Positions 26 to 15,860 of a stretch of 64,000 nucleotides of DNA are shown in pieces. Both the position numbers and the translations under genes were made by a program. Under the pieces are notes generated by a model. It ran no database searches and was not told the DNA's origin. It saw nothing but the letters and a program-made list of their open reading frames with translations. Each line of letters opens with the position of its first letter. Position 1 is the stretch's first letter. Source of the stretch: Lactobacillus kullabergensis (GTDB taxonomy: Bacteria > Bacillota > Bacilli > Lactobacillales > Lactobacillaceae); NCBI RefSeq assembly GCF_000967195.1, contig NZ_KQ033871.1, forward strand, positions 1,750,067-1,814,066, written 5' to 3'.

Positions 26-2278
26 TTATTTTAGTAATCGCAACATAATCTTATTTATCTGACTTCTTAATATATCAAATTCTCCTTCTTTTGTTTTGTT
101 AGACTGGATGACTATAATAGTTTTACCATCATCTGAGCTACGCAAAAACGTATAATAGCCTGCTCCTCCACCATTAGCTTTTTTTATATTATGGGACTTG
201 TCGTTATAAAAGCCACCATTGTAATAAGCTGGTGGAGCAGCTTGATAAAGAAAATTACAACTTGCTTTTGTAAGTAGTTTGCCCGCTAAAATATAATGGA
301 CCGTCTTAGCTAAATCATGATTGGACATCACTACTGATCCTGCCCCCAGTTCGTCATGTGCATTATGCAAGGCCTTTTTAAATTTAAAAGTATTATATTG
401 ACCATTACGATAAACCATTCCTGGAACTAAGCCACTAGCAACAATTTTGTCCGGCTTTGACCACAAAAATTCCGTTTGTTGCAACTTTAATGGTCTGACA
501 TAGGTGTCACGGAATAGCTGCTCATAGCTTTGGCCCGTTATTTTACTCATAATGCCACATAAATAAATATAGTTTAGTGAACGGTAATGCCATTTACCGA
601 GCATTTTAGCATTAAAAACCGTTTTTTTAGCATCACATTGAACATTATCATTATCTGAAATGAAATGTTTTCGCCCTAATCTTGCCCCTGGCTTAAGATC
701 AAGACCTGCCGTCATGTCTAACAGATTTTTCAACTTAACCTTCTTCGCCCCAGCAATTTGCGGATAAAATTTACTCAATTTATCCTGCAGACTTAGCTTG
801 CCCTCCTGCACTAGGTGCATGATAATTGCAGCAGTCATTGATTTTTGTACAGAATTAATTAAATAACTAGTGTTCGTATTATTCTCAGTAGCGTAATCAA
901 GCCAAGTCTTACCATTTTTAATGACTAGAATTGAGCCCTTGATTCCTAAAGCATCAATTTGCTGGCGCACTATTTTCCTTTTTAGTGAATCTGATTTGCT
1001 AAAATCATGTAGCTTTTGGTTTATAGTTCTGATTGCGTATGGCTTTTTTTGCCACTTTTTACTATAAAAATAGTTATGAATATTATAGTTATGCGGCACA
1101 TTTGCTTGCGCCATAAACGGTTTTACTGCCCGGTCGACTGCTACCCAGCCGCGCCAACCTAGGTGAATCGTATCTTCCATGAAGTACTGCTCACCGCCGC
1201 GCTTAGACAAATCGGTGACGTTATCAAAGCCCTGGCTGGCCAGCTGGTACTTAATCTTGGAAACGGCCTTTTGGTACATCGTTTGTGACAAGCCCGTATA
1301 ATTAGACCATTTTTCATTAATCGGCGGGATAATGAACAACACATTGGTATGCTGCTTGGCAAACTGGTGCAACATCAGTTCAAAATCACTGTATTCTACT
1401 GATTTAGTGTAGTTAAAGTGTCGTTGACTGCCCTTCAATTTAACCAATAAACGTTTATTCAAACGCCGCTTAAAAAAGCGGTTATTAATGCCAAAGCTAT
1501 TCGAATTAGTGTTAAGTTCAGCCTGCTCACTTGCCACTTGGTCTAAGGCCTTGACTGAATACGTATTCGGCAATAACTTGGCCTGTTTGTTAATCTTTTT
1601 AATGCGATCGCGCAATTGGAAAGTGCTGAAGAACTTATCTTCATTGTTAAGTATGCGCCGCTGGTTCTCCAAGTAGAAACGCTGAAAACCGGTCAGCTTT
1701 TCCCCGCGGGCAACTCTTTTCATTCCCAGCTTAATAACGCCTTTTACTTCCGGCATCTGCAAGAAGCGTTTAGCCGCATAGCGGTTTGTCGGTGTATCTT
1801 TTTTAATCCCTAACAGAAAATTGCAGGCTTGCAGCGGGGAATAATACAGTGCGAAGGCATCAGGATTTTGCCCCTTCTTGGTAAACCATTGCGGTGAAAC
1901 AATCACCACGGCTTTTTTGCCCTTAAGCTGTTTTGAGGTGCCCTGCATCTCTAAGAAGTGTGCCAAAGACTGGCTACCTGGCCCACCTAATAAAAACGGC
2001 CGGTAATTGCGGTGATATTTTTGCGCAATTACACTCGGGTGCAGCGGGTCAAGCCGTGACAGTTCACTTGAGCCATAAAAAGGCACATAGTCATCTTTAA
2101 AGGCATCCTGTTTCATCAAAGAGCCTTTAAAAATAGTCGTGGTCTGGGAATTAGCTGCTTGGTAAATGGCATCTTGAGAAAAAGTTCGCTCCCACGGCAG
2201 TAAAAAGATGACCAGTAACAAGATAGCGGCGCAGAGTACTGGGCCAAAAATCTGCCACAGCCGGCCTTTGTTACTCAT
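26..2278 (-). CDS. dltD: DltD fused to a C-terminal beta-lactamase-like serine hydrolase
   Basis: This 750-residue protein has two enzyme modules. The first 390 residues are DltD-like: one N-terminal membrane anchor (about 10-28), the catalytic GSSE motif (residues 69-72, Ser70) and the late D-x-x-H-L-G motif (His372). DltD moves D-alanine onto lipoteichoic acid outside the membrane. Residues about 430-750 look like a class C beta-lactamase/esterase: SVQK (476-479, the SxxK nucleophile box), a YRS box (565-567) where YxN is usual, and a Gly-rich GGG box (703-705) where KTG or HxG is usual. The start chosen is the ATG preceded by AGGAGGG; an upstream ATG would place that ribosome site inside the gene. 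It follows dltB by 47 bases. Ordinary DltD is about 420 residues, so the hydrolase is a clear addition. By analogy with DltE-type esterases it may remove D-alanine or another acyl group; that is inference. Confidence 0.88.
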   Translation of the reverse strand: MSNKGRLWQIFGPVLCAAILLLVIFLLPWERTFSQDAIYQAANSQTTTIFKGSLMKQDAFKDDYVPFYGSSELSRLDPLHPSVIAQKYHRNYRPFLLGGPGSQSLAHFLEMQGTSKQLKGKKAVVIVSPQWFTKKGQNPDAFALYYSPLQACNFLLGIKKDTPTNRYAAKRFLQMPEVKGVIKLGMKRVARGEKLTGFQRFYLENQRRILNNEDKFFSTFQLRDRIKKINKQAKLLPNTYSVKALDQVASEQAELNTNSNSFGINNRFFKRRLNKRLLVKLKGSQRHFNYTKSVEYSDFELMLHQFAKQHTNVLFIIPPINEKWSNYTGLSQTMYQKAVSKIKYQLASQGFDNVTDLSKRGGEQYFMEDTIHLGWRGWVAVDRAVKPFMAQANVPHNYNIHNYFYSKKWQKKPYAIRTINQKLHDFSKSDSLKRKIVRQQIDALGIKGSILVIKNGKTWLDYATENNTNTSYLINSVQKSMTAAIIMHLVQEGKLSLQDKLSKFYPQIAGAKKVKLKNLLDMTAGLDLKPGARLGRKHFISDNDNVQCDAKKTVFNAKMLGKWHYRSLNYIYLCGIMSKITGQSYEQLFRDTYVRPLKLQQTEFLWSKPDKIVASGLVPGMVYRNGQYNTFKFKKALHNAHDELGAGSVVMSNHDLAKTVHYILAGKLLTKASCNFLYQAAPPAYYNGGFYNDKSHNIKKANGGGAGYYTFLRSSDDGKTIIVIQSNKTKEGEFDILRSQINKIMLRLLK

Positions 2279-2325
2279 TTTTACCCTCCTATCCATAATC
2301 AAAACTCCTTAGATAAAATTCTTGC

Positions 2326-3570
2326 TTACTTCCAGCCAAACCATAGTTGACTGAGAAAACCTGAGAATATCAGGAAACTAAAACACACTACATTAAAAGT
2401 AACAAAAATTGCCAGCCATTTTGTGTATTTATTAGATGGCAATTTGTCTTTGTGCTTCTTCTTAAACCGCAGCCAGCAATCATTGATGATGATGGCCACA
2501 GCATGAAACAACCCATAAACAATATAATACCAGGTTAGTCCATGCCAGAAGCCCATCACTAAGAATAATAACAGATAAGCTGCTTGAGATAGTCTGACCG
2601 GATTCTTGAACAGCTTTTTCTTCATTGCAAAGAAGGTAAACCGCATATAGATGTAGTCGCGAAACCAAAAGGACAAAGTCATGTGCCAGCGGTTCCAGAA
2701 TTCTTTAATATTTTGGGAAATAAACGGCTTATTAAAGTTCATTGGGGTGTGAATACCCATAAAGTAGGAAATTGACACGGCAAATAAAGAATAGCCGGCA
2801 AAGTCAAAGAACAAATACATGCTGTAGCAGTACATATAAGCCACTAACCACCAGGAAAGTTTTAAACCGCCATTAGCCGTACCTGTTATCATTGCTGCTC
2901 GGGTAATTCGCGGCAGCCAGTAGGTACCAAAGAACCAGCCCAGAACAAATTTATATAAGAATCCTTGAAATAAATAGCGGGTTGCCAGCTCTAAATCGTT
3001 TAAATATTGCTCACGCTTTGGCACCGTGTCACATTCTTTGGCAAATCTGCGGTAGCGATCAATTGGCCCCGATGAAATTGTGGGAAAGAACAAGAGAAAG
3101 CGCAAATACGTTCCCAGATTAAGTTCTTTAATAGCGCCATCGCGCACTTCCATCACAACCTGAACGGTCTTGAACGTAAGATAGGAAATACCCAGAAAGG
3201 CCAAGACCCCCGGAATTTTAGCTTGCGGAAAAGCAGTCTGCACTTTCACTAAAATCAGAGGCACAATTGCTAAAATCACCGCTAGGTAAAAGACCCAGGT
3301 TTTATTCTGACTATTTTTACGCCTGCGATAATAGAGATAGCCATAGGAAACCAGGAGCTGAAACAGAATATAGATGATCAGGCTAACGCCCTGTTGCCAT
3401 TTTTCACCATCAAAAATGAGAAATAAAAAAACTAACGAGAACACAACCTCATATATTTTTAAACGGTGACCCCAATACAGCCCGATGATAATGGGGATTA
3501 AGCCAATCATCAAATACACAAAGTAATGCGGATTAGAGTATGGCTGTAAGTTAATGAAATTAGCGTTCAC
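2326..3570 (-). CDS. dltB: DltB, membrane-bound O-acyltransferase
   Basis: This 414-residue multi-spanning membrane protein belongs to the MBOAT family and matches DltB, the channel that passes the D-alanyl group across the membrane. The family signature is present: FWNRWHMTLSFWFRDY (from residue 291), with His296, and the catalytic His343 in GFWHGLTW. The 47-residue spacing between these histidines equals the family spacing. The start is GTG with GGAGGTC ten bases upstream. It lies between dltX and the dltD fusion on the same strand, so it is probably co-transcribed with both. The usual partners dltA and dltC, which load D-alanine on the carrier protein, are not present in the window. Confidence 0.93.
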   Translation of the reverse strand: MNANFINLQPYSNPHYFVYLMIGLIPIIIGLYWGHRLKIYEVVFSLVFLFLIFDGEKWQQGVSLIIYILFQLLVSYGYLYYRRRKNSQNKTWVFYLAVILAIVPLILVKVQTAFPQAKIPGVLAFLGISYLTFKTVQVVMEVRDGAIKELNLGTYLRFLLFFPTISSGPIDRYRRFAKECDTVPKREQYLNDLELATRYLFQGFLYKFVLGWFFGTYWLPRITRAAMITGTANGGLKLSWWLVAYMYCYSMYLFFDFAGYSLFAVSISYFMGIHTPMNFNKPFISQNIKEFWNRWHMTLSFWFRDYIYMRFTFFAMKKKLFKNPVRLSQAAYLLLFLVMGFWHGLTWYYIVYGLFHAVAIIINDCWLRFKKKHKDKLPSNKYTKWLAIFVTFNVVCFSFLIFSGFLSQLWFGWK

Positions 3571-3712
3571 TACTCGTTGACCTCCTTAATTTTGGTTTTA
3601 CATTAAAGTTAATTTGATACTTGTGCTGTTTTATAACTAAATAGTTTTTAAAAATTAAATCTTGTTATTTCAATAAAGTGCTTGATTAATTTCTTTCATT
3701 TGCGTAGCCCAT

Positions 3713-3835
3713 TTAGAATTCATTATAGATAAAATGAACAGATGTTAATCCACTATAGTGATACAAGTAAATCAAGGCTCCAAAAATGGCGCAATAGACA
3801 ATTGTCATAAAAATAAAACTTACTATTTTCTTCAT
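3713..3835 (-). CDS. dltX: DltX, small D-alanylation membrane peptide
   Basis: A 40-codon gene recognised from its product: an N-terminal MKKIVSF, one hydrophobic membrane span (about residues 5-25) and the C-terminal FIYNEF that is the hallmark of DltX. DltX is the short membrane peptide at the head of dlt operons whose C-terminus is needed for D-alanyl transfer. The ribosome site AGGAG lies at a suitable distance upstream. The gene is 142 bases before dltB and is the probable first gene of this reduced operon. Its presence argues that the downstream pair is a true Dlt-type transfer system rather than another MBOAT pair. Confidence 0.9.
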   Translation of the reverse strand: MKKIVSFIFMTIVYCAIFGALIYLYHYSGLTSVHFIYNEF

Positions 3836-4031: not shown

Positions 4032-4883
4032 ATGAAAAAGATTTTTAAAATAATCATTTTTTGCGGCATTGTCGGTCTTCTCGTATTAGCAGGTATCAAA
4101 ATGAACTATGCTTTACAAAAGCCCCAATTAACAGAAGCTCAAACCAATCAAACTACCAAAAAAGTTTACACAGTTAAAAAATTTGATAAAATCAAATTTT
4201 CTTCTTACAGGCCTAATACTGACGTTACTTTAGGTAACAAATACCAAGTCAAAATTAAGGCTAAACGAGGTGGAAATGCACAAAAAATCAAAACCAAAGT
4301 TAAAAATAAGCAACTGACTATTTATGATGAACCAGAAAAGCATTTTAATGATGGCTATTATGAAGTCACTGTTACTGTACCAAGTAAAAACGCTTTGAAA
4401 AAGGTATCAGGCTATTTACGAGGAGGCTCCGTGTACTTAGAAAAGTTAAATATTCCCGATATTAATCTCAAATCAAACATTGCTTATTTTGCCTTTGATC
4501 ATGTCTCTTCTCAAAATGTTAAGTTAAAAATAAAACATGAAGTTTCAGACATAATGGATTCTAATTTAAAGAATTGCTCTATTAATATCGGTAAAGGTAA
4601 TATGACTATTGATGACAGTAAAATCAAAGCTAAAGTGCACATTGATAAGGGTGGCATGACAGTTGTTGATAGCACTTTCCTGGGTGATAGTTCCTTCACT
4701 CTTAATAAAGGATTATTTTTGATGACAGATGCTCCTAAAATAAGTTATGACCTGCGCGTTGATCCTAAGCATAAAATTGAAACTGACAATAAAGATTATC
4801 ATAAACGTCTATCTATTATCGTACCAAACAAGCCAACCGTTAAAGTAACTAGCAAGAATGCAAATATAGAATTTTATAGATAG
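4032..4883 (+). CDS. DUF4097-like membrane-anchored beta-repeat protein 1
   Basis: A 283-residue protein with one N-terminal membrane span (about 5-25) followed by a repetitive beta-strand region. The repeat style (short strands ending in D/N turns, 'VKKFDKIKF', 'VTVTVPSKN') is that of DUF4097/LiaG-like proteins, which are extracytoplasmic and of unknown activity. It is the first of three tandem paralogues, separated by 37 and 22 bases, so one transcript is likely. The start follows a run of Gs (GGGGGGG) twelve bases upstream. The operon is divergent from dltX, which suggests a cell-envelope role; that link is contextual only. Confidence 0.7.
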   Translation: MKKIFKIIIFCGIVGLLVLAGIKMNYALQKPQLTEAQTNQTTKKVYTVKKFDKIKFSSYRPNTDVTLGNKYQVKIKAKRGGNAQKIKTKVKNKQLTIYDEPEKHFNDGYYEVTVTVPSKNALKKVSGYLRGGSVYLEKLNIPDINLKSNIAYFAFDHVSSQNVKLKIKHEVSDIMDSNLKNCSINIGKGNMTIDDSKIKAKVHIDKGGMTVVDSTFLGDSSFTLNKGLFLMTDAPKISYDLRVDPKHKIETDNKDYHKRLSIIVPNKPTVKVTSKNANIEFYR

Positions 4884-4920
4884 ATTCAGTATGTTTTAAT
4901 TAGAAATGAAGAAATTAACT

Positions 4921-5808
4921 ATGAAAAGATTATATAAATTAGGCAGCTTTTTAGGAATCGCTGGATTATTGGTACTCATTGGCGCTAAGGCAAATAATTT
5001 CCTACAAAATCCTCAGTATCAAGATGACAAAGTCGTTTTTGCCAAAAAGTCAAGATCTCAAAATAAAGTCAACAAAAGTTTTAATGTTAAAGATTTTGAT
5101 CAAGTCAAACTTAACACTAATAGGCCTGATATCAAATTCGTTGTAGGTAAGACTTTTAGTGTACAAGCCAACGGAACTAACAGAGCTCATATTGAGCTTA
5201 CCAGAGTCAGCGTTAAAAACAGAAAACTAACTATCTATGACAAACCTACCGGTCATCATAATTATGGCGGATATACAGTTACCATAACGGTTCCTAATAA
5301 GAACTCTATAAAAAAGGTTACCGGAAATTGTGATATCAGTGATATCTACTTCAAGGGTTTGAATATTCCAAGTATTGCTGTCAAAACAGGCTATGGCGAT
5401 GTTATCTTTAATCACGTCAACTCTGAAAATGTTAGTGTCAAGCAAACAAATGGTGACTTAAAAGTCTTAAATTCAACAATTAAAAACAGTACAGTTAAAT
5501 TAAGCGTTGGAGATTTAACAATTAAAAATAGTAAGTTCAAAACAAAGGCCAATTTAGCTTTAGCACCTGACTTCAAATATAGTAGTGTCAAAATTCAAAA
5601 TTCCAGCCTTTTAGGAAATAGTTCAATTAATTTGGCTATAGGTGACTTTGTTATGACGGGTGCTCCGAAAATCAGTTATGATTTGACAACTAAACCAAAA
5701 GGTAAAATCAAATTTCAAAGCAGACATTACACTCATCAATTTTCTAAGACTGTTCCTAATCAACCACTTCTTAAAGTTAACAGCAGAGGAAATATTAAAA
5801 TAGATTAA
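4921..5808 (+). CDS. DUF4097-like membrane-anchored beta-repeat protein 2
   Basis: Second paralogue, 295 residues from the chosen ATG. This start aligns MKRLYKLGSFLG with the first residues of its two neighbours and has GAAG about ten bases upstream; an ATG five codons earlier (4906) is possible. It has an N-terminal membrane span, then the same motifs as its neighbours: 'VKDFDQVKL', 'LTIYDKP', 'VTITVPNKNSIKKV', 'LNIPSI' and 'GAPKISYDL'. The beta-strand body is built of repeats with S/T/N-rich turns, as in a beta-helix. Function is unknown. Confidence 0.68.
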   Translation: MKRLYKLGSFLGIAGLLVLIGAKANNFLQNPQYQDDKVVFAKKSRSQNKVNKSFNVKDFDQVKLNTNRPDIKFVVGKTFSVQANGTNRAHIELTRVSVKNRKLTIYDKPTGHHNYGGYTVTITVPNKNSIKKVTGNCDISDIYFKGLNIPSIAVKTGYGDVIFNHVNSENVSVKQTNGDLKVLNSTIKNSTVKLSVGDLTIKNSKFKTKANLALAPDFKYSSVKIQNSSLLGNSSINLAIGDFVMTGAPKISYDLTTKPKGKIKFQSRHYTHQFSKTVPNQPLLKVNSRGNIKID

Positions 5809-5830
5809 TTAAAATGAAGGTAAATTAGAA

Positions 5831-6778
5831 ATGAAAAAGTTTTATCAAATATGTGGCAGTATCGCTACTTTAGCAGCTCTTCTTTTTGTAGTTGGCAAAG
5901 CAAACAACAATTTTTCGAAAACTGGAATCGTTGATGCAAAAGCCAGTCAAACTACAAAAACAAATAGCTACAAAGCAGTTGTCACAAAAACAAAGAAAGG
6001 CAAAGTCAAGAAAACTTATACTGTTCCCAAATTTAGCCAAATCAAACTTGCTTGTTACAGACCAGATGTGGTCATTGACTTAGGTAAAAAATTTAAAATC
6101 ACTGTTATAGGAGAAAAAGGAGCCGATGTTAATAAAATTAATACAAAAGTGGACAACAATCAGCTTACTGTTTATGATGAACCCGAATATAAATTCAACG
6201 ATGGTGACTATCAAATAAATATTACCGTTCCCCACAAAAATAGCGTAAAAGAAATAACTGGTTTCAATTATGAATATGGTGTCATAATAGATAAATTGAA
6301 TATTCCCAGTATTAATTTAAGCTCAACTGCAGGATCCCTTTTTATTTCAGACGTTAAAGCAAATAATGTGACCTTTACAGTTAAAAACTATGACGCCAAA
6401 CAAAATCATGACGATGATAATGAATGCATAGATGTCTTTGATTCTAAATTAAAAAGCAGTAATTTCAATGTAAATAAAGGAAACATTTATATTTATAGTA
6501 GTAAGCTAAAAACTAATACTTTTATCAATCATGGCAATTTTAATTTTGGCAGCAGTAAAGCTATTGGCCAAAGCACAATCGATCTAAATACCGGTAATTT
6601 TAGTATGTTCGATATGTTTGATTTGCCAAAAATCAATTGTGACCTTACAACTGATTCTACACAAAAAATAAAAGTTGGTAAAAAATACTATCCTCATCAT
6701 TTTTCTACTTCTTCCCAAGCAAACCCATTGCTTAAAGTTACCAGTAAAACTGGCAAAATTTCAATATCTAAGGATTAA
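5831..6778 (+). CDS. DUF4097-like membrane-anchored beta-repeat protein 3
   Basis: Third paralogue, 315 residues, with GAAGG upstream of the ATG. The N-terminal hydrophobic span (about 8-24) is followed by a Lys/Thr-rich linker longer than in the other two copies, then the shared beta-repeat body ('VPKFSQIKL', 'LTVYDEPEYKFNDGDY', 'ITVPHKNSVKEI'). It is the most diverged of the three in its middle, with an acidic insertion near residues 190-200. It is the last gene of the probable three-gene operon. No enzymatic motif was seen. Confidence 0.68.
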   Translation: MKKFYQICGSIATLAALLFVVGKANNNFSKTGIVDAKASQTTKTNSYKAVVTKTKKGKVKKTYTVPKFSQIKLACYRPDVVIDLGKKFKITVIGEKGADVNKINTKVDNNQLTVYDEPEYKFNDGDYQINITVPHKNSVKEITGFNYEYGVIIDKLNIPSINLSSTAGSLFISDVKANNVTFTVKNYDAKQNHDDDNECIDVFDSKLKSSNFNVNKGNIYIYSSKLKTNTFINHGNFNFGSSKAIGQSTIDLNTGNFSMFDMFDLPKINCDLTTDSTQKIKVGKKYYPHHFSTSSQANPLLKVTSKTGKISISKD

Positions 6779-7581: not shown

Positions 7582-8691
7582 TTATTTGGCCGTCTTTGGC
7601 TTAGCATTTTGCTGTGCTTCTTCTGCAGTATTAATTGGACTTAATTTCACCCCTGCAATAAATCTAACATCACTTGCTTTTACATAGCCGTCACCAACAT
7701 CAATTGAATCTGGTCCTTTACCACCTGGTAGGTCAGAGGCATAAAACTCATGACCTTTTAAATGGTAAAACAGTTCTGCTTTATTTTCAGCTGGCACCCA
7801 AATGTAAAGCAATTTATCTACCTTTAAATTTCCGCCTTGTTTCCTAATTCTTTGTCCTTTGTGATCTTGCTTGGTGCCATCGGCATTATAGACATCTGTA
7901 TCTTGATAAAATCTAATATAAGAATAGTGCTCATAATCATAGTAATGAGAAGGCAAATCTTTCTTAACTTTAACGTCTAAGCAATACAGCCAATTATTCG
8001 TCCCTTTAATACGATAAATAACTGCATTTGGTATAGCCAATTGGCTAATTTCTTCAGCGTATCCTTGTTCTTCAGCACGATCGACTATGAAGGTAGTGCC
8101 TTTTTTTGCCTTTTTAATAGTTTTAAGACCATTATTGATCTCATAAATTGGAGCACCACCATCTCTTGTTACTGTTGCGATCGTTTCTTCGGTGTTTGAA
8201 GCAGTGATTTTGCCCAAGTTGCTGGCTCTCACATATTGCTTTGAGGGACCACCAATGCGGTAGTAGCGCAAACCATTCTTAAACTTAACGGTACCACCAT
8301 AAGTTGTAATGGAAGTTCCTTTTCTAATTAAACGATAGTCAGCCCTGCGTGAACTGGTAGCGTAAACATAGGAATTATGCTTAACTTCACGTTTAACACC
8401 GTCAATGTTATTAGCTTTGATAAATTGTTTTTTACCGCTAATTCTATAATATGGTGCGTATGGCTCAAAATCTAAGATAACAGGTTTTTTATCAACTTCA
8501 ATCCGGCGAAAAGCTGGATACTTAGCATCTGCCTTTTGTCCGTTCTCATCATATGCTTGTGACGTATACATAACGGTTCTTATAGTGCTGGGAATCTTTG
8601 CTTGAACAGTATGGGATTGCTGATTAAATGTCCAAATTGCAGTAAGTCCTAAAAAACCAGCTGCTAAATAATGAGTAATTTTTTTATTCAT
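7582..8691 (-). CDS. Secreted SLAP-domain surface protein 1
   Basis: A 369-residue secreted protein. The start chosen is MNKKITH, with AGAGAGG nine bases upstream; a longer frame exists but lacks a ribosome site and would bury the signal peptide. A signal peptide (cleavage near VQA-K, residue 31) is followed by SLAP-type repeats ('HNSYVYATSSRRADYRLIR', 'YYRIGGPSKQYV'), a variable middle, and a conserved C-terminal domain ending 'KLSPINTAEEAQ'. SLAP domains bind the lactobacillar cell wall non-covalently, so surface location is likely. The protein is very close to its upstream neighbour, with which it shares signal peptide and promoter region. Function is otherwise unknown. Confidence 0.85.
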   Translation of the reverse strand: MNKKITHYLAAGFLGLTAIWTFNQQSHTVQAKIPSTIRTVMYTSQAYDENGQKADAKYPAFRRIEVDKKPVILDFEPYAPYYRISGKKQFIKANNIDGVKREVKHNSYVYATSSRRADYRLIRKGTSITTYGGTVKFKNGLRYYRIGGPSKQYVRASNLGKITASNTEETIATVTRDGGAPIYEINNGLKTIKKAKKGTTFIVDRAEEQGYAEEISQLAIPNAVIYRIKGTNNWLYCLDVKVKKDLPSHYYDYEHYSYIRFYQDTDVYNADGTKQDHKGQRIRKQGGNLKVDKLLYIWVPAENKAELFYHLKGHEFYASDLPGGKGPDSIDVGDGYVKASDVRFIAGVKLSPINTAEEAQQNAKPKTAK

Positions 8692-8798
8692 ATGTTTTAA
8701 CCTCTCTTCTTCAAAAAATGCTATCTTTATTTTTGATTCTCTAATTTCTGCAATCAAAACAAGAAATTATATAATTTCATTCTGTGCTTTTCTTAACG

Positions 8799-8848
8799 AT
8801 TAATGAAGTTAAAAAATGATGGACTTAATTAGCCAAATATCTTAATAC
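8799..8848 (-). promoter_or_regulatory. Repeated upstream element, copy A
   Basis: A block of about 50 bases, about 110-160 bases upstream of the SLAP protein 1 start. The same block stands at matching distance before SLAP proteins 2 and 4 (10132-10180 and 12606-12654). It probably holds the promoter or a binding site. Confidence 0.6.
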
Positions 8849-8878
8849 AAATAGGAAATAAGTATGTTATGACTTTAA

Positions 8879-10024
8879 CTAATTCCCTGCTCTTTTCTTA
8901 GCAGCTTCAATTACTTCTTTGGTCGTTTTTTGCTTAGCAGCTTGACTTGCTTCTTCAGCTGTGTTGATCGGGCTTAGTTTTACGCCGTCAATAAATCTAA
9001 CATCACTCGCTTTGACATAGCTATCACCAAAATCCACTTCACTACCGCCACTTCCATCTGGCTTATTAGTGGCATAAAACCAATGACCTTTCATATGGTA
9101 AAATAGTTCAGCTTTATTTTCGGCTGGCACCCAAATATAAAGCAATTTATCTACCTTTATATTACCTCCCTGTTTCCTGATTCTTTGTCCATTATTATCT
9201 TGCTTTGTGCCATCAGCATTATAGACGTCTGTATCTTGATAAAATCTAATATAAGAATAATGCTCAGAGTTATAAAAATGATGCGGAAGCTCTTTTTTAA
9301 CTTTAACGTCTAGGCAATTGAGCCAATTATTCGTCCCTTTAATGCGATAAATAACTGCATTTGGAATAGCCATATTGGTTATATCGTCAGCATATCCTTC
9401 TTCTTGAGCTCGGTCGACTATAAAAGTAGTACCTTTTTTAGCCTTTTTAGTAGTTTTGAGACCGTTATTGATCTCATAAATTGGAGTCCCACCGTCTTTT
9501 GTCACTGTTGCGATAGTTTCTTCAGTGTTTGAAGCAGTGATTTTGCCCAAGTTGCCGGCTCTCACATATTGTTTTGCAGGACCACCAATGCGGTAGTAGC
9601 GCAAACCATTCTTAAACTTGACGGTACCACCATAAGTTGTAATTGAGGTTCCTTTCCGAATTAGGCGGTAGTCAGCCCTGCGTGAACTGGTAGCGTAAAC
9701 ATAGGAATTATGTTTAACTTCACGTTTAACGCCATCGATGTTATTAGCCTTGATATATTGCTTTTTACCGCTAATTTTATAGTATGGGGCATAGGGCTTG
9801 AAAGTTAGGATTAATGGCTTTTTATCAACTTCAATCCGGCGAAAAGCTGGATATTTAGCGTCTACCTTTTGTCCATCCTCATCATATGCTTGTGACGTAT
9901 ACATAACGGTTCTTATAGTGCTGGGAATCTTTGCTTGAACAGTATGGGATTGCTGATTAAATGTCCAAATTGCAGTAAGTCCTAAAAAACCAGCTGCTAA
10001 ATAATGAGTAATTTTTTTATTCAT
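8879..10024 (-). CDS. Secreted SLAP-domain surface protein 2
   Basis: A 381-residue secreted protein, the closest relative of SLAP protein 1: the first 60 residues are almost identical. The start (MNKKITH) and its ribosome site are also the same. It has a signal peptide, two SLAP-type repeats, a variable middle ('DRAQEEGYADDITNMAIPN') and the shared C-terminal domain with 'KLLYIWVPAENKAELFYH'. After 'KLSPINTAEEA' it has a longer charged tail (SQAAKQKTTKEVIEAAKKRAGN) than its copy. The pattern points to a recent tandem duplication that included the 5' flank, with later change in the middle and tail. Confidence 0.85.
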   Translation of the reverse strand: MNKKITHYLAAGFLGLTAIWTFNQQSHTVQAKIPSTIRTVMYTSQAYDEDGQKVDAKYPAFRRIEVDKKPLILTFKPYAPYYKISGKKQYIKANNIDGVKREVKHNSYVYATSSRRADYRLIRKGTSITTYGGTVKFKNGLRYYRIGGPAKQYVRAGNLGKITASNTEETIATVTKDGGTPIYEINNGLKTTKKAKKGTTFIVDRAQEEGYADDITNMAIPNAVIYRIKGTNNWLNCLDVKVKKELPHHFYNSEHYSYIRFYQDTDVYNADGTKQDNNGQRIRKQGGNIKVDKLLYIWVPAENKAELFYHMKGHWFYATNKPDGSGGSEVDFGDSYVKASDVRFIDGVKLSPINTAEEASQAAKQKTTKEVIEAAKKRAGN

Positions 10025-10131
10025 ATGTTTTAACCTCTCTTCTTCAAAAAATGCTATCTTTATTTTTGATTCTCTAATTTCTGCAATCAAAACAAGAAAT
10101 TATATAATTTCATTCTGTACCTTTCTTAGTG

Positions 10132-10180
10132 ATTAATGAAGGTAAAAAATGGTGAATTAAATTAGGCAAATATCTTAATA
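10132..10180 (-). promoter_or_regulatory. Repeated upstream element, copy B
   Basis: Second copy of the 50-base block, about 110 bases upstream of the SLAP protein 2 start. The whole flank from 10025 to 10180 closely resembles 8692-8848, so duplication carried the full regulatory region. Confidence 0.6.
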
Positions 10181-10181
10181 A

Positions 10182-10223
10182 AAAATGCATCCAATAGCTG
10201 GCTTTTACTATTAGGTGCATTTT
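10182..10223. terminator. Bidirectional terminator, copy 2 of 3
   Basis: AAAATGCATCCAATAG pairs with CTATTAGGTGCATTTT. It ends the SLAP protein 3/4 transcript and lies directly upstream of element B. Confidence 0.8.
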
Positions 10224-10251
10224 ATTGTAAATTTAATTTCTAAAAAATTAT

Positions 10252-11337
10252 TTATTTGACAGTTTTTTGCTTGGCGTTTTGCTGTGCTTCTTCAGCTGTA
10301 TTGATCGGGCTTAGTTTTACGCCATCAATAAATCTAACATCTTTTTGCTTAACATAGCCATCACCAACATCTATTACAGAGGTTCCTCCTTCTCGTGAGG
10401 CAGAGGCGTAAAATTCATGGCCCTTCAAGTGGTAAAATAATTCCGCTTTCTTTTCAGCTGGTACCCAAATATAAAGCAATTTATTTACTTTTAAAAACCC
10501 ACCTTGTTTTCTGATCTTTTGTCCGTGATGATCTTGCATAGTACCGTCTGCATTGTAAACATCTGTATTTTTATAAAACTTAATGTAAGAATAATGTTCA
10601 GAATCATAGTAATGTACAGGCATTTTCTTTTTGGCTTTAACTTCACTGCTCAGTAACCAATATTTTGTACCCTTAATATGATAAGTAAATATTTGGGGAT
10701 CATCTTCATCCCCTCCATTATTTTCAGCATAGTCTACCGTAAATTTTGTACCCCTTTTGGCTTTCTTGGAATAAGTATCGTCTTTAATAAAATCATAAAG
10801 TCCAGCTCCTTCTTTTGCAGTTACTTTTACAGTTGTTTCTTCTGTATTAGAACTAATAATCTTACTTAAGTTGCTGGCTTTCACATATTGCTTTTTTGGT
10901 CCACCAATGCGGTAGTAACGTTGCCCGTTCTTAAATTTGAAGGAATTGCCATAAGTTGTTATTGTCTTGCCCTTTTTAAGCAAACGGGAGTCAGCCCTCC
11001 GAGAGCTTGTAGCGTAAACATAAGAGTTTCGTTTGACCTTGCGTTTAACACCGTCAATGTTACTTGCCTTGATATATTGCTTTTTACCTTTAATTTGATA
11101 TGCGGGTGCAAACGGCTTAAAAGAAAATGGAATTGGTTGATCATCTAACTTAACCTGAGTGTAAGCTGCATATTTTCCTTTTACTTTATCACCGTATAAA
11201 TCATAAGCCTGGGCATCGTGCATTACGGTCGTAACAATACTTTTAGCTTCTACAGTATTGACTTTTTGGTTCATAACAAAAATTGCACAAACGCTTAAAA
11301 TAGTAGCTGCAACATAATGTAGAAACTGCTTATTCAT
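10252..11337 (-). CDS. Secreted SLAP-domain surface protein 3
   Basis: A 361-residue secreted protein with signal peptide (MNKQFLHYVAATILS..., cleavage near VEA-K), SLAP-type repeats ('VKRNSYVYATSSRRADSRLL', 'YYRIGGPKKQYVKASNL') and the family C-terminal domain ('DVYNADGTMQDHHGQ', 'KLLYIWVPAEKKAELFYHL', 'KLSPINTAEEA'). The start has GGGAG upstream. It lies 32 bases after SLAP protein 4 on the same strand and lacks its own upstream element, so it is probably the second gene of a two-gene operon. The middle (about residues 175-215) is acidic and unlike its neighbours. Confidence 0.85.
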   Translation of the reverse strand: MNKQFLHYVAATILSVCAIFVMNQKVNTVEAKSIVTTVMHDAQAYDLYGDKVKGKYAAYTQVKLDDQPIPFSFKPFAPAYQIKGKKQYIKASNIDGVKRKVKRNSYVYATSSRRADSRLLKKGKTITTYGNSFKFKNGQRYYRIGGPKKQYVKASNLSKIISSNTEETTVKVTAKEGAGLYDFIKDDTYSKKAKRGTKFTVDYAENNGGDEDDPQIFTYHIKGTKYWLLSSEVKAKKKMPVHYYDSEHYSYIKFYKNTDVYNADGTMQDHHGQKIRKQGGFLKVNKLLYIWVPAEKKAELFYHLKGHEFYASASREGGTSVIDVGDGYVKQKDVRFIDGVKLSPINTAEEAQQNAKQKTVK

Positions 11338-11369
11338 ATATTTTCTCCCTTCTAGACATATTTCAAAAA

Positions 11370-12479
11370 TTATTCAGCTTTCTTATTTGTATCCTGTTTT
11401 GCAGCTTGACGCGCTTCTTCTGGTGTATTACTTGGACTTAATTTAAGGCCATCAATAAATTTAACATCTTTTTTCTTAACATAGCCTTGACCGACATTTA
11501 TTACATCCGAACCACTGCTTCCATCTGGTAAATCTGTAGCATAAAATTGATGGCCTGCTAAATGATAAAACAATTCAGCCTTATTTTTGGATTTTATCCA
11601 AATATAAAGCAATTTGTTTACCTTTATAAAACCTCCTTGTTTGATAATTTTTTGCCCATGATGATCTTGCTTTGTACCGTCAGCATTATAAACATCAGTA
11701 TCTTTATAAAACATTATATAAGTATAATGTTCAAATTTATAATCATGTATTGGTATTTTCTTATCTGCTTTGACATCACGGTACCATATCCAAAAGTCTG
11801 TACCTTTTATATGATATTCATATCCATCAGGATCGTCTATATCCATGGAAGAATATTGCGCATAATCAACTTTGAATTTGGTTCCTTTCTTGACTCTCTT
11901 TACAATGTCTTCATCGTCACTATCAATATAAGCATAATCAGTAATATCAGCTCCCTTGGTTTTTACAGTTACAGTTGTTTCTTCTGTATTAGAACTAATA
12001 ATCTTACTTAAGTTGCTGGCTTTCACATATTGCTTTTTTGGTCCACCAATGCGGTAGTACCATAAACCGTTCTTAAATTTGAAGGAATTGCCATAAGTTG
12101 TTATTGTCTTGCCTTTTTTAAGCAAGCGAGAATCAGCCCTCCGCGAGCTCGTAGCGTAAACAAAGGAATTATGTTTGACTTTACGTTTAACACCATCTAT
12201 GTTGCTGGCCTTGATATATTTATTTTTACCGCTAATTTTGTATGCTGGTGCAAACGGTTTAAATCTGAATGAAATTGGGTCATCGTCCACCTTAACTTGA
12301 GTATAAGCTGCATATTTTCCTTTGACTTTATCACCATATAAATCACAAGCTTGAGCATCGTGCATTACGGTTTTAATAATACTTTTGGCTTCTACAGTAT
12401 TAGTTTGTTGGTTAAGCACCAGACTTGCAGAAATGCCCAATATAGCAACTGCTAAATAACGAAAAGGCTTTTTAGTCAT
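11370..12479 (-). CDS. Secreted SLAP-domain surface protein 4
   Basis: A 369-residue secreted protein. The start chosen is MTKKPFRY, with AAAGGAG eleven bases upstream; eleven upstream codons in frame are probably untranslated. It has a signal peptide, SLAP-type repeats closely matching protein 3 ('AYDLYG'-like 'ACDLYGDKVKGKYAAYTQV'), an Asp-rich middle ('DYAYIDSDDEDIVKR', 'YSSMDIDDPDGYEYH') and the common C-terminal domain, here ending 'KLSPSNTPEEARQ'. It heads the two-gene unit with protein 3 and has its own copy of the repeated upstream element. Confidence 0.85.
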   Translation of the reverse strand: MTKKPFRYLAVAILGISASLVLNQQTNTVEAKSIIKTVMHDAQACDLYGDKVKGKYAAYTQVKVDDDPISFRFKPFAPAYKISGKNKYIKASNIDGVKRKVKHNSFVYATSSRRADSRLLKKGKTITTYGNSFKFKNGLWYYRIGGPKKQYVKASNLSKIISSNTEETTVTVKTKGADITDYAYIDSDDEDIVKRVKKGTKFKVDYAQYSSMDIDDPDGYEYHIKGTDFWIWYRDVKADKKIPIHDYKFEHYTYIMFYKDTDVYNADGTKQDHHGQKIIKQGGFIKVNKLLYIWIKSKNKAELFYHLAGHQFYATDLPDGSSGSDVINVGQGYVKKKDVKFIDGLKLSPSNTPEEARQAAKQDTNKKAE

Positions 12480-12605
12480 ATAATTTTTACTCCTTTCTCT
12501 TAAGACAGGCACTGTTGTTACTGCATCGCCCTTATTTCATAAAAATGCAAAACAAATGATAGCGCAAACATACTGGCTATAATTAATTCTGAACCTTTTT
12601 CAGTA

Positions 12606-13559: not shown

Positions 13560-15860
13560 CTAAAAGTTAGCTTTCTTTACATATCGCTTCAATCCGGTGA
13601 TGTAATAATAACGACCTTTCCGTTTTGCTGCACCACCAAATGTTCTAACTTTGCGTCCACGCTTCAGACTGGCATGTCTTATTTTCTTTACTTTTTGATT
13701 ATAGATCAGAGCCTTGTGCTTTAACTTACGCTTTTGGCCTGTAATATTAGTAGCCTTCACAAACGTATTATTACCTAAAAGATAATACTTCTTACCTTTT
13801 ATGTTTTCGGTACCATAAGTAATAATTATCTGGCCTGACATAAATTCGCCTGGTTTCCGCTTACCATTAATATCATAAAGATAAGAATTATGCATTACCG
13901 TTCTTTCAGTCCCGTTAAAGTTAGCTTTCTTCACGTAGCGGTTCAATCCGATGATATAGTAATAGCGACCTTTTCGCTTTACTGCACCGCCATATGTTGT
14001 AACTTTGCGTCCACGTTTCAGAATGGCATGTCTTATTTTCTTTACTTTTTGATTATAGATCAGAGCCCTGTGCTTTAACTTACGCTTTTGGCCTGTAATA
14101 TTATTGGCCTTCACAAACGTATTATTACCTAAAAAATAATACTTCTTACCGTTTATGTTTTCGGTATCATAGGTAGTAATTATCTGGCCTGACATAAATT
14201 CGCCTGGTAACCGCTTACCATCAATATCATAGAGATACGAATTATGCATTACCATTCTTTCAGTCCCTTTAAGGTAAGTAAAAGTTACAGTCTGAGGCTC
14301 ATAGCTGAAGAAGCCTGTCGCATTATAAGGTCTTGCCTTTAATAGATAACCAGCAAATTTCAGTTCTTGGGTAATGTAGCCATCGCCAACATTACCATTC
14401 AAGATTGTATCAGGTGCCAGTTTAAGGCCATTTTTATCTTCATAATGGACTCTGACATCAGCTCCTGCAATCGGCTCTATAGTACCAGATGAATGACTTG
14501 GTGGCGTTGGTGTTGGCGTCGGTGGTGTTGGCGGATTGACTGGTGGCTTATCCTCATCAAAGTGTGTACCCTCGCGAACATAAGTATCGGCATCATTAGC
14601 TGGATCATAATTTGCTATTAACTCTTTTGAGCTCCACCTATTCTTGCCCTGAGGGTCATTAAGTGTACCACCAGCAACATTGCGCCAAGTGCCATCAGCA
14701 TCAAATCCTGTACCCTTGACAATATTATCTTTTCCTAGTTTTAACAAGTTTAAACTTTGCAAATCATTTAGCATATCGGAAATGTATATAATTTTGCTCA
14801 TATCAAAACCGCTAATATCAAGCCTTTGCAACCGAATATCATACTGAAACATGCCGCTCATATTAAAAACATTCGCGGTTTTAAAATTACTGAGATCAAG
14901 CTCTGTGATATTCTCACAGTCATTAAACATGTCATTCATTACAGTTACTTTATCAGTATTAAATTTGCTAACATCAATTTTTGTTAATAACTTACATGAA
15001 GCAAACATTCCTGACATAGTCGAAACGTTAGCAGTTGAAAAGCCGCTAACATCTAGGTCAGTTAAGACAAAGCAATTGTTAAACATCCCGTTCATATCAG
15101 TGACATTATCAGTTTTGAAATCTTTACCAAACTTAATACTTTTTAGTGACCAGCAATTCTGGAACATAGTACTGGTATTAGTCACCTTACTAGTTTTAAA
15201 GTTGCTTAAATCAATTGCATTTAAACTTCTGCATTCTTCAAACATGCCACTTAATTCCGAAACATTTTCGGTATTAAAGGAACTGACATCAATATTTTTA
15301 AGACTTACGCAAGAATAAAACATGCTTGACATTGTGGTAACATTGGCAGTATTAAAGTTTTTTAGATTAACATCGCTCAAACGATAACATGATGAAAACA
15401 TGCTTGTCATATCAGTAATTTTACTAGTATCAAGCTTGTCCAAGCCGTCTATATTAGTTAGATAAGTAAAGCCTTTAAATAGATACCTGACTGACCCACT
15501 AAGTGTCAAGGGACCCTGAATAACAATATGGTTAACATTTTCAGGATCAAGCCTTACATTATATAAAGCATTTGCCAGCGGTTTCGGGTCATTAAAAGCT
15601 GTGGAGTTACCAGGAATAGTTAATGTTTTACTGGTCGAATCATAGCTAAGTGACAGTTCACTATTATCATCAATATCAGTACTGACCCATGGAACTGTCT
15701 TAGTTTCTCTTGTTGCAATTTTCGTTTCTTTTGCTGAATTTGCAGGAGGTGAAGCCGATGCAAATATTGTTTGCGGTTTAATAATACTTAAACCTACCAC
15801 AGTCATAGCAATAATAGCTAAGTACGTTGTAAGTTTAATCCTAAAATGGTGTTTATTCAT
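13560..15860 (-). CDS. BspA-type LRR / MucBP / SLAP surface protein
   Basis: A 766-residue secreted protein. The start has AAAGGAG upstream. The order of parts is: signal peptide (about 1-33); a spacer; about ten BspA-like (DUF285) leucine-rich repeats (about 120-390) of the pattern 'T..V.-MS.MF..C..L..LDLS.F'; a Pro-rich linker ('PPVNPPTPPTPTPTPP'); one MucBP domain (about 465-530, 'GADVRVHYEDKNGLKLAPD'); and two SLAP repeats (about 535-766) that are near copies of each other. The LRR and MucBP parts suggest binding to host proteins or mucin, and SLAP suggests non-covalent wall attachment. No LPxTG motif is present. It ends at the terminator downstream of hicB. Confidence 0.85.
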   Translation of the reverse strand: MNKHHFRIKLTTYLAIIAMTVVGLSIIKPQTIFASASPPANSAKETKIATRETKTVPWVSTDIDDNSELSLSYDSTSKTLTIPGNSTAFNDPKPLANALYNVRLDPENVNHIVIQGPLTLSGSVRYLFKGFTYLTNIDGLDKLDTSKITDMTSMFSSCYRLSDVNLKNFNTANVTTMSSMFYSCVSLKNIDVSSFNTENVSELSGMFEECRSLNAIDLSNFKTSKVTNTSTMFQNCWSLKSIKFGKDFKTDNVTDMNGMFNNCFVLTDLDVSGFSTANVSTMSGMFASCKLLTKIDVSKFNTDKVTVMNDMFNDCENITELDLSNFKTANVFNMSGMFQYDIRLQRLDISGFDMSKIIYISDMLNDLQSLNLLKLGKDNIVKGTGFDADGTWRNVAGGTLNDPQGKNRWSSKELIANYDPANDADTYVREGTHFDEDKPPVNPPTPPTPTPTPPSHSSGTIEPIAGADVRVHYEDKNGLKLAPDTILNGNVGDGYITQELKFAGYLLKARPYNATGFFSYEPQTVTFTYLKGTERMVMHNSYLYDIDGKRLPGEFMSGQIITTYDTENINGKKYYFLGNNTFVKANNITGQKRKLKHRALIYNQKVKKIRHAILKRGRKVTTYGGAVKRKGRYYYIIGLNRYVKKANFNGTERTVMHNSYLYDINGKRKPGEFMSGQIIITYGTENIKGKKYYLLGNNTFVKATNITGQKRKLKHKALIYNQKVKKIRHASLKRGRKVRTFGGAAKRKGRYYYITGLKRYVKKANF

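Follow-up and report, generated by a model that had tools for sequence, protein, structure and literature searches.

We analyzed a stretch of 64,000 nucleotides from Lactobacillus kullabergensis (the window), which carries at positions 26..3835, on the minus strand, a reduced dlt unit made of dltX, dltB and a dltD gene fused to a serine hydrolase resembling DltE, the D-alanine (D-Ala) esterase of Lactiplantibacillus plantarum. Comparison with related genomes makes it likely that most of the genus produces a joined DltD-DltE protein by programmed -1 recoding at the end of dltD, the window copy being a hard-wired form of this protein that can draw on dltA and dltC in trans. The gene architecture, the reading frames, the slippery heptamers, the lack of an anchor, the missing start codons in some species, the repeated fusions and the dltA and dltC genes in trans are all read directly from sequence. 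That recoding happens, and how efficiently, we infer from them.

The 3' end of dltD in the genus Lactobacillus

We searched 75 genomes of the genus, of which 67 gave a match; the 8 without a match at an E value of 1e-30 were all 57-87% complete. After a 235-codon dltD fragment (G031) had been left out, 69 dltD loci from 66 genomes were compared. The hydrolase was fused to dltD in 11 loci, followed dltD directly as an unfused open reading frame (ORF) in 52 and was absent from the stretch fetched in 6. The fusion, which a preliminary description of the window had singled out, is real but not unique: 11 of the 69 loci share it and 52 more have the same domain out of frame.

In 49 of the 52 unfused loci, the hydrolase ORF lies in the -1 frame relative to dltD, and 47 of these 49 harbor a slippery heptamer in the last codons of dltD (U_UUA_AAA in 38, A-runs in 9). 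The main group of 38 dltD genes ends in NNT TTA AAA ... TAG, and 8 others, a johnsonii-type group, end in ATA AAA AAA AAC TAG, which contains A_AAA_AAC and nine A in a row. The dltD gene of L. jensenii ends in a run of ten A. The arrangement that marks a frameshift gene, X_XXY_YYZ in the zero frame beside the stop codon and a downstream ORF in the -1 frame, was therefore found in 47 of 49 loci.

After removal of near-copies (>95% identical), the heptamer was present within the last six codons in 39 of 41 genes. As a yardstick, we replaced codons by synonymous ones according to each gene's own codon usage, on rows that had not been selected for the heptamer. In 2000 draws, which do not give a probability because the sequences are related, the heptamer occurred on average in 7.4 genes and at most in 16. 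The heptamer is thus conserved beyond the needs of the protein. Elsewhere in the same genes it appeared in 161 of 16,933 six-codon windows. Furthermore, the codon preceding TTA ends in T in 37 of the 41 genes, despite encoding ten different residues.

We also searched 397 genomes of the family for the pattern TTTAAAAGNNNANTAGTGCG. It was found in 13, all among the 25 genomes of the genus, once in each and always at the dltD junction; one of these 13, L. acetotolerans, is already fused. None of the 372 genomes from 39 other genera contained it, and the reversed pattern was found in none. Similarly, the heptamer was missing from the end of dltD in all 7 distant homologue loci with dltD upstream, which belong to other genera and encode a separate, anchored hydrolase. 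Within the genus, U_UUA_AAA is present in both deep parts, which is consistent with an old origin.

The unfused ORFs of the genus begin at the catalytic domain. None of the 52 has a hydrophobic segment before this domain, and the N-terminal membrane segment typical of DltE is thus lacking. A wider set, capped at the 80 best matches among 90 relatives and comprising 79 loci, included 38 more distant homologues (one from L. equicursoris, L186, and 37 from other genera). Such a segment was present in 38/38 of them (19-residue hydropathy of at least 1.66). In the genus, the anchor of DltD would stand in for the missing one.

The start codons and the frame limits are in agreement with a frameshift. 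None of the 49 ORFs in the -1 frame contains an ATG in the stretch scanned, and in the A_AAA_AAC group 6 of 8 are also devoid of any GTG or TTG there. A -1-frame stop codon lies directly 5' of the heptamer in 5 of the 47 loci, so that any change of frame in these 5 is confined to the heptamer or later. In addition, where an aspartate stands two codons before the dltD stop, it is encoded by GAC in 13 of 14 genes, as compared to 51 of 250 aspartate codons elsewhere in those genes; GAT at this position would create a TAA in the -1 frame in most of them.

Several loci departed from the common arrangement. Three loci of one clade (L084, L086 and L087, from G045, G043 and L. rodentium G038) have a DltE-like ORF in the +1 frame around the dltD stop and share no start codon. 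One genome (G032) harbors two complete dltXABCD operons (L048 and L049), each with U_UUA_AAA and a -1-frame hydrolase. In two others (G056, L046 2770-6763; G040, L047 5187-9144), a second dlt unit consists of dltA, dltC and a fused dltD-dltE with a very divergent DltD, the converse of the reduction seen in the window. No dltB was found between the genes of these second units, and none of the ORFs listed near the unit of L046 is DltB-like. Further hydrolase-like matches that do not adjoin dltD and have longer open frames occur for example in G072, G058, G020, G042 and G036, and one in G000.

The fused gene of the window and the complete operon

The genes of the window unit had been identified in the preliminary description by their motifs, and matches to PF12459, TIGR04091 and TIGR04092 bore this out for DltX, DltB and DltD, respectively (Table 1); DltX gave no NCBIfam match. 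As also described there, neither dltA nor dltC lies within 26..3835, so the dltXABCD set is incomplete. The fusion itself is a single open frame of 760 codons from stop to stop, with zero internal stops. Its first part scored 465 bits against the curated DltD model TIGR04092 (cut-off, 150) over residues 10-388, and its second part matched PF00144 with an E value of 9e-31 over residues 435-734 (first Met not counted in either range). The two DltD motifs listed in Table 1 presumably contain the catalytic residues.

We considered a missed stop codon, which the preliminary description had named as grounds for refutation, and a single base-call error. Both are unlikely because another genome (G037) contains a fused open frame that is 93% identical to that of the window, has the same junction phase and ends after 602 codons at the contig end. 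An assembly artefact was rejected on this ground and because the unfused relatives differ in frame and not by a stop codon alone.

The relation to DltE-type esterases proposed earlier was upheld by the comparison with solved structures. By sequence, the whole fusion matched DltD structures in its first part and DltE (8agr, E 1e-39) in its second. The hydrolase domain alone again gave DltE of L. plantarum (8agr; PMC10241514) as its best solved relative, with an E value of 3e-40, and FmtA of Staphylococcus aureus (5zh8, E 3e-16) as the second. SxxK is preserved as SVQK (residue 476, Met counted), and its serine and lysine, together with the YRS tyrosine, match SIQK and Tyr213 of DltE in the alignment; SxxK and the catalytic tyrosine were both invariant in 22 aligned hydrolase domains. 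The ligand-binding Tyr338 and Gly348 of motif 3 are kept as well. We predict D-Ala esterase or transferase activity for the domain and a role of the fusion in D-alanylation.

The genome of the window (2.1 Mb, 6 contigs, 99.98% complete) was then found to have the second, full operon whose search had been suggested. This dltX-A-B-C-D operon lies on the same contig, about 200 kb from the window unit, and is followed by its own hydrolase ORF. With a -1 slip at its heptamer, the predicted product continues as ...SLKRKIVRQQIDALGIKGSILVIKNGK, and the window fusion is identical to it over all 27 residues. At the DNA level, one additional A fixes the frame in the window and the heptamer is lost. Because its junction residues equal this predicted product, the window gene is regarded as the hard-wired form of the predicted frameshift protein. 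The fused genes of L. acetotolerans, L. colini, L. hominis and of several metagenome-assembled genomes (MAGs) have different junctions. Eight changes of the fused state are required on the DltD tree, and well-supported branches force at least 6 of these; the count is approximate owing to the long branches of some fused sequences. As judged from this tree, in-frame fusion arose repeatedly in the genus.

The single dltA and the single dltC of the genome are both inside the complete operon, and on this gene count the window unit can draw D-Ala-loaded DltC from it in trans. Since the end of dltA and the start of dltC persist in the right places (Table 1), the window unit is what remains of a complete operon that lost these two genes, a reduced extra copy (dltX-dltB-dltDE). 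The window DltB and DltD are 97% and 89% identical to their counterparts in the complete operon. In the tree, however, the window DltD clusters with those of L. melliventris and a MAG (G037), apart from that of its own complete operon (support 97/93). The synonymous distances agree, being 0.43-0.49 to L. melliventris for dltB and dltD versus 0.83-0.92 to the own operon. Given both results, the unit probably arrived from, or was exchanged with, the L. melliventris lineage. The ratios of nonsynonymous to synonymous substitution rates (dN/dS) against the own complete operon were low (0.024 for dltB, 0.062 for dltD and 0.113 for the hydrolase), which argues that the window copy is maintained by selection. 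In G037 (L050), a window-like fused allele belongs to a unit in which dltC is present and dltB is 99.5% identical to that of L. melliventris. This points to recombination as a means of passing the fused 3' end from one operon to another, or else to a chimeric contig.

Table 1. Features of the reduced dlt unit in the window
Feature	Position	Strand	Product or extent	Observation
dltX	3713..3835	-	40 aa	PF12459, E 2e-14; 67% identity to complete-operon dltX
dltA scar	3571..3590	-	final ~20 bases of dltA, serving as dltB ribosome-binding site	identical bases at the dltA end of the complete operon
dltB (MBOAT acyltransferase)	2326..3570	-	414 aa	TIGR04091, 541 bits (cut-off 375)
dltC scar	2291..2311	-	dltC ribosome-binding site and first codons, directly 5' of dltD and in frame with it	by sequence comparison
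dltD-dltE fusion gene	26..2278	-	750 aa	frame also open upstream to ATG at 2296 and TTG at 2302
DltD domain (PF04914)	1112..2152	-		motifs GSSELSR and DTIHLGW kept
Junction	967..988	-	TCACTAAAAAGGAAAATAGTGC (complete operon, TCTTTAAAAGGAAAATAGTGC)	one extra A; -1 frame fixed, slippery heptamer gone
DltE-like serine hydrolase domain (PF00144)	74..973	-		active-site motif SVQK

Next to the dlt unit, the window contains three related tandem genes matching DUF4097/DUF2807 (4032-6778), which are transcribed away from it. They are followed by four tandem genes with SlpA (surface-layer) domains (7582-12512), the first two of which begin with an identical long peptide, and by a larger SlpA/MucBP/DUF285 protein (13560-15860).

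Weighing recoding against other explanations

Several observations weigh against programmed -1 recoding. Two of the 49 -1-frame loci lack a full heptamer, and one of the six dltD genes without hydrolase also ends in A_AAA_AAA. In three loci (L. rodentium, G043 and G045) the hydrolase is in the +1 frame and no -1 heptamer is present; G045 has an upstream ATG. A +1 shift or another route is possible in this clade. In the main group, downstream RNA structure did not exceed the level expected by chance (mean z of 0.07 to -0.67), and the A-run group reached z values down to -1.95, on 8 near-identical sequences. Not every proven frameshift case has a stimulatory structure (PMC4066793). According to the same study, U_UU.A_AA.A does not belong to the 18 motifs selected for being both shifty and under-represented in Escherichia coli, and A_AA.A_AA.C is rated as a low-efficiency motif in this species. 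In the window domain, the active-site residues Arg345 and His347 of DltE (numbering counted along the aligned chain) are replaced by lysine and asparagine. Finally, a GTG overlaps the dltD stop (TAGTGCG) in 41 of the 49 junctions, so that reinitiation is possible, and a fair Shine-Dalgarno match (-5 kcal/mol or lower) precedes this GTG in 8 of 40, above the 7% of random 15-mers.

Overlap of a stop codon with a -1-frame start is a common form of translational coupling. Ribosomes would then terminate at UAG and reinitiate at the GUG that overlaps it to give a free cytoplasmic hydrolase, the heptamer would be incidental and the window fusion a later accident. The conserved overlap and the Shine-Dalgarno matches speak for this explanation, which we nevertheless consider unlikely. 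The matches before GTG are weak by comparison with those before the dltD start, where 39 of 49 genes reached -5 kcal/mol or better (best of several starts taken). Coupling leaves unexplained the heptamer, the start-less 6 of 8 ORFs in the A_AAA_AAC group, the absence of ATG in all 49, the -1 frame that is open upstream of the GTG and the repeated fusion. Moreover, a cytoplasmic DltE would not reach lipoteichoic acid (LTA), and the more distant homologues are all anchored. As a separate observation, TAGTGCG is kept at the stop even where the proteins are less than 60% identical, and the 41 junctions never have TAATG.

The window unit could also be a decaying duplicate without function. It has indeed lost dltA and dltC, but its three genes are open, their motifs are intact, their dN/dS values are low and their ribosome-binding sites are kept, which makes this quite improbable.

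A frame shift during transcription rather than on the ribosome would suit the A-runs of the johnsonii-type group (nine A) and of L. jensenii (ten A), since runs of nine A are prone to slippage in bacteria (PMC5009743). However, the 38 loci of the main group have TTTAAAA only, whose four A are too short. Transcriptional slippage could apply to nine A-run loci at most, and we regard it as very improbable as a general explanation; the fused protein would be the same either way.

The use of another acyl donor, proposed in the preliminary description since dltA and dltC are absent from the unit, was rejected as highly improbable: this genome has one dltA and one dltC, both within its complete operon, the unit carries scars of their loss, and its DltB and DltD are closely identical to the versions of that operon.

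Relation to known systems and possible role

The programmed frameshift that we favor would proceed as follows. Near the end of dltD, directly ahead of its stop codon, ribosomes would encounter U_UUA_AAA or an A-run, and a fraction of them would slip back by one base and read on into the DltE-like domain. Since this domain lies in another frame and lacks its own export signal, such a slip is probably required for the joined protein. The outcome would be DltD-DltE beside DltD alone. The N-terminal anchor of DltD would take the DltE domain outside, to the D-Ala esters of LTA next to DltD. DltD of S. aureus is oriented N-in/C-out (PMC3783018), and a C-terminal extension would therefore be exported with it.

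In L. plantarum, DltE is a D-Ala esterase acting on LTA, yet its loss cuts LTA D-Ala by ~70% and the S128A substitution by ~93% (PMC10241514). The earlier idea of a transfer and a removal activity on one polypeptide, in its simple form of a writer plus an eraser, is therefore doubtful. FmtA, a related teichoic acid D-Ala esterase, is required for D-alanylation of wall teichoic acid (WTA) in S. aureus (PMC12505958). In view of these two findings we favor a partner role, in which DltD would place D-Ala and the joined DltE domain would free or relay it. As DltE activity is needed for D-alanylation in L. plantarum, and does not work against it, the joined protein may by analogy be an acyl relay moving D-Ala on from the site where DltD places it. 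Taken together, it seems likely that a genus-wide -1 frameshift yields a bifunctional DltD-DltE, exports the esterase via the DltD anchor and sets the DltD:DltD-DltE ratio, with a possible acyl relay, and that it has repeatedly been replaced by permanent fusion, with a +1 shift perhaps taking its place in one clade.

The window hydrolase resembles DltE of L. plantarum in its fold family (by sequence), SxxK, the motif 2 tyrosine, Tyr338, the motif 3 glycine and its linkage to dlt. It is unlike DltE in being joined to the C terminus of DltD and in the residues at Arg345 and His347, whereas DltE is made separately, carries a membrane segment of its own and is the product of the first gene of its operon (PMC10241514). 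FmtA is a separate protein too, with its gene apart from the dlt operon (PMC10241514). As compared to canonical dltXABCD, the window copy is alike in dltX, dltB and dltD but has no dltA and dltC, and its DltD has an extra domain. The bacterial chromosomal -1 frameshift genes dnaX, copA and cso2 share the slippery heptamer and give two products per gene (PMC5009743). In contrast, the predicted shift in dltD would add a whole exported enzyme domain, and no stimulatory structure was found. In the literature searched, neither recoding nor a fusion was described for dltD, and the terms dltD, teichoic acid and D-alanyl are absent from the main text of a genome-wide survey of frame transitions (PMC3711429). 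Chromosomal, non-mobile bacterial genes that add a working domain by -1 recoding are few, and among those that we found none concerns the cell envelope.

A DltE physically tied to DltD would offer a handle on why an esterase is required to D-alanylate LTA in L. plantarum (PMC10241514) and WTA in S. aureus, for which no acyltransferase is known (PMC12505958). If our reading is true, the free cytoplasmic "serine hydrolase" presumably annotated in many Lactobacillus genomes does not exist as such. D-alanylated LTA is a signal sensed by the host, and the ratio of DltD to DltD-DltE could therefore matter for commensals.

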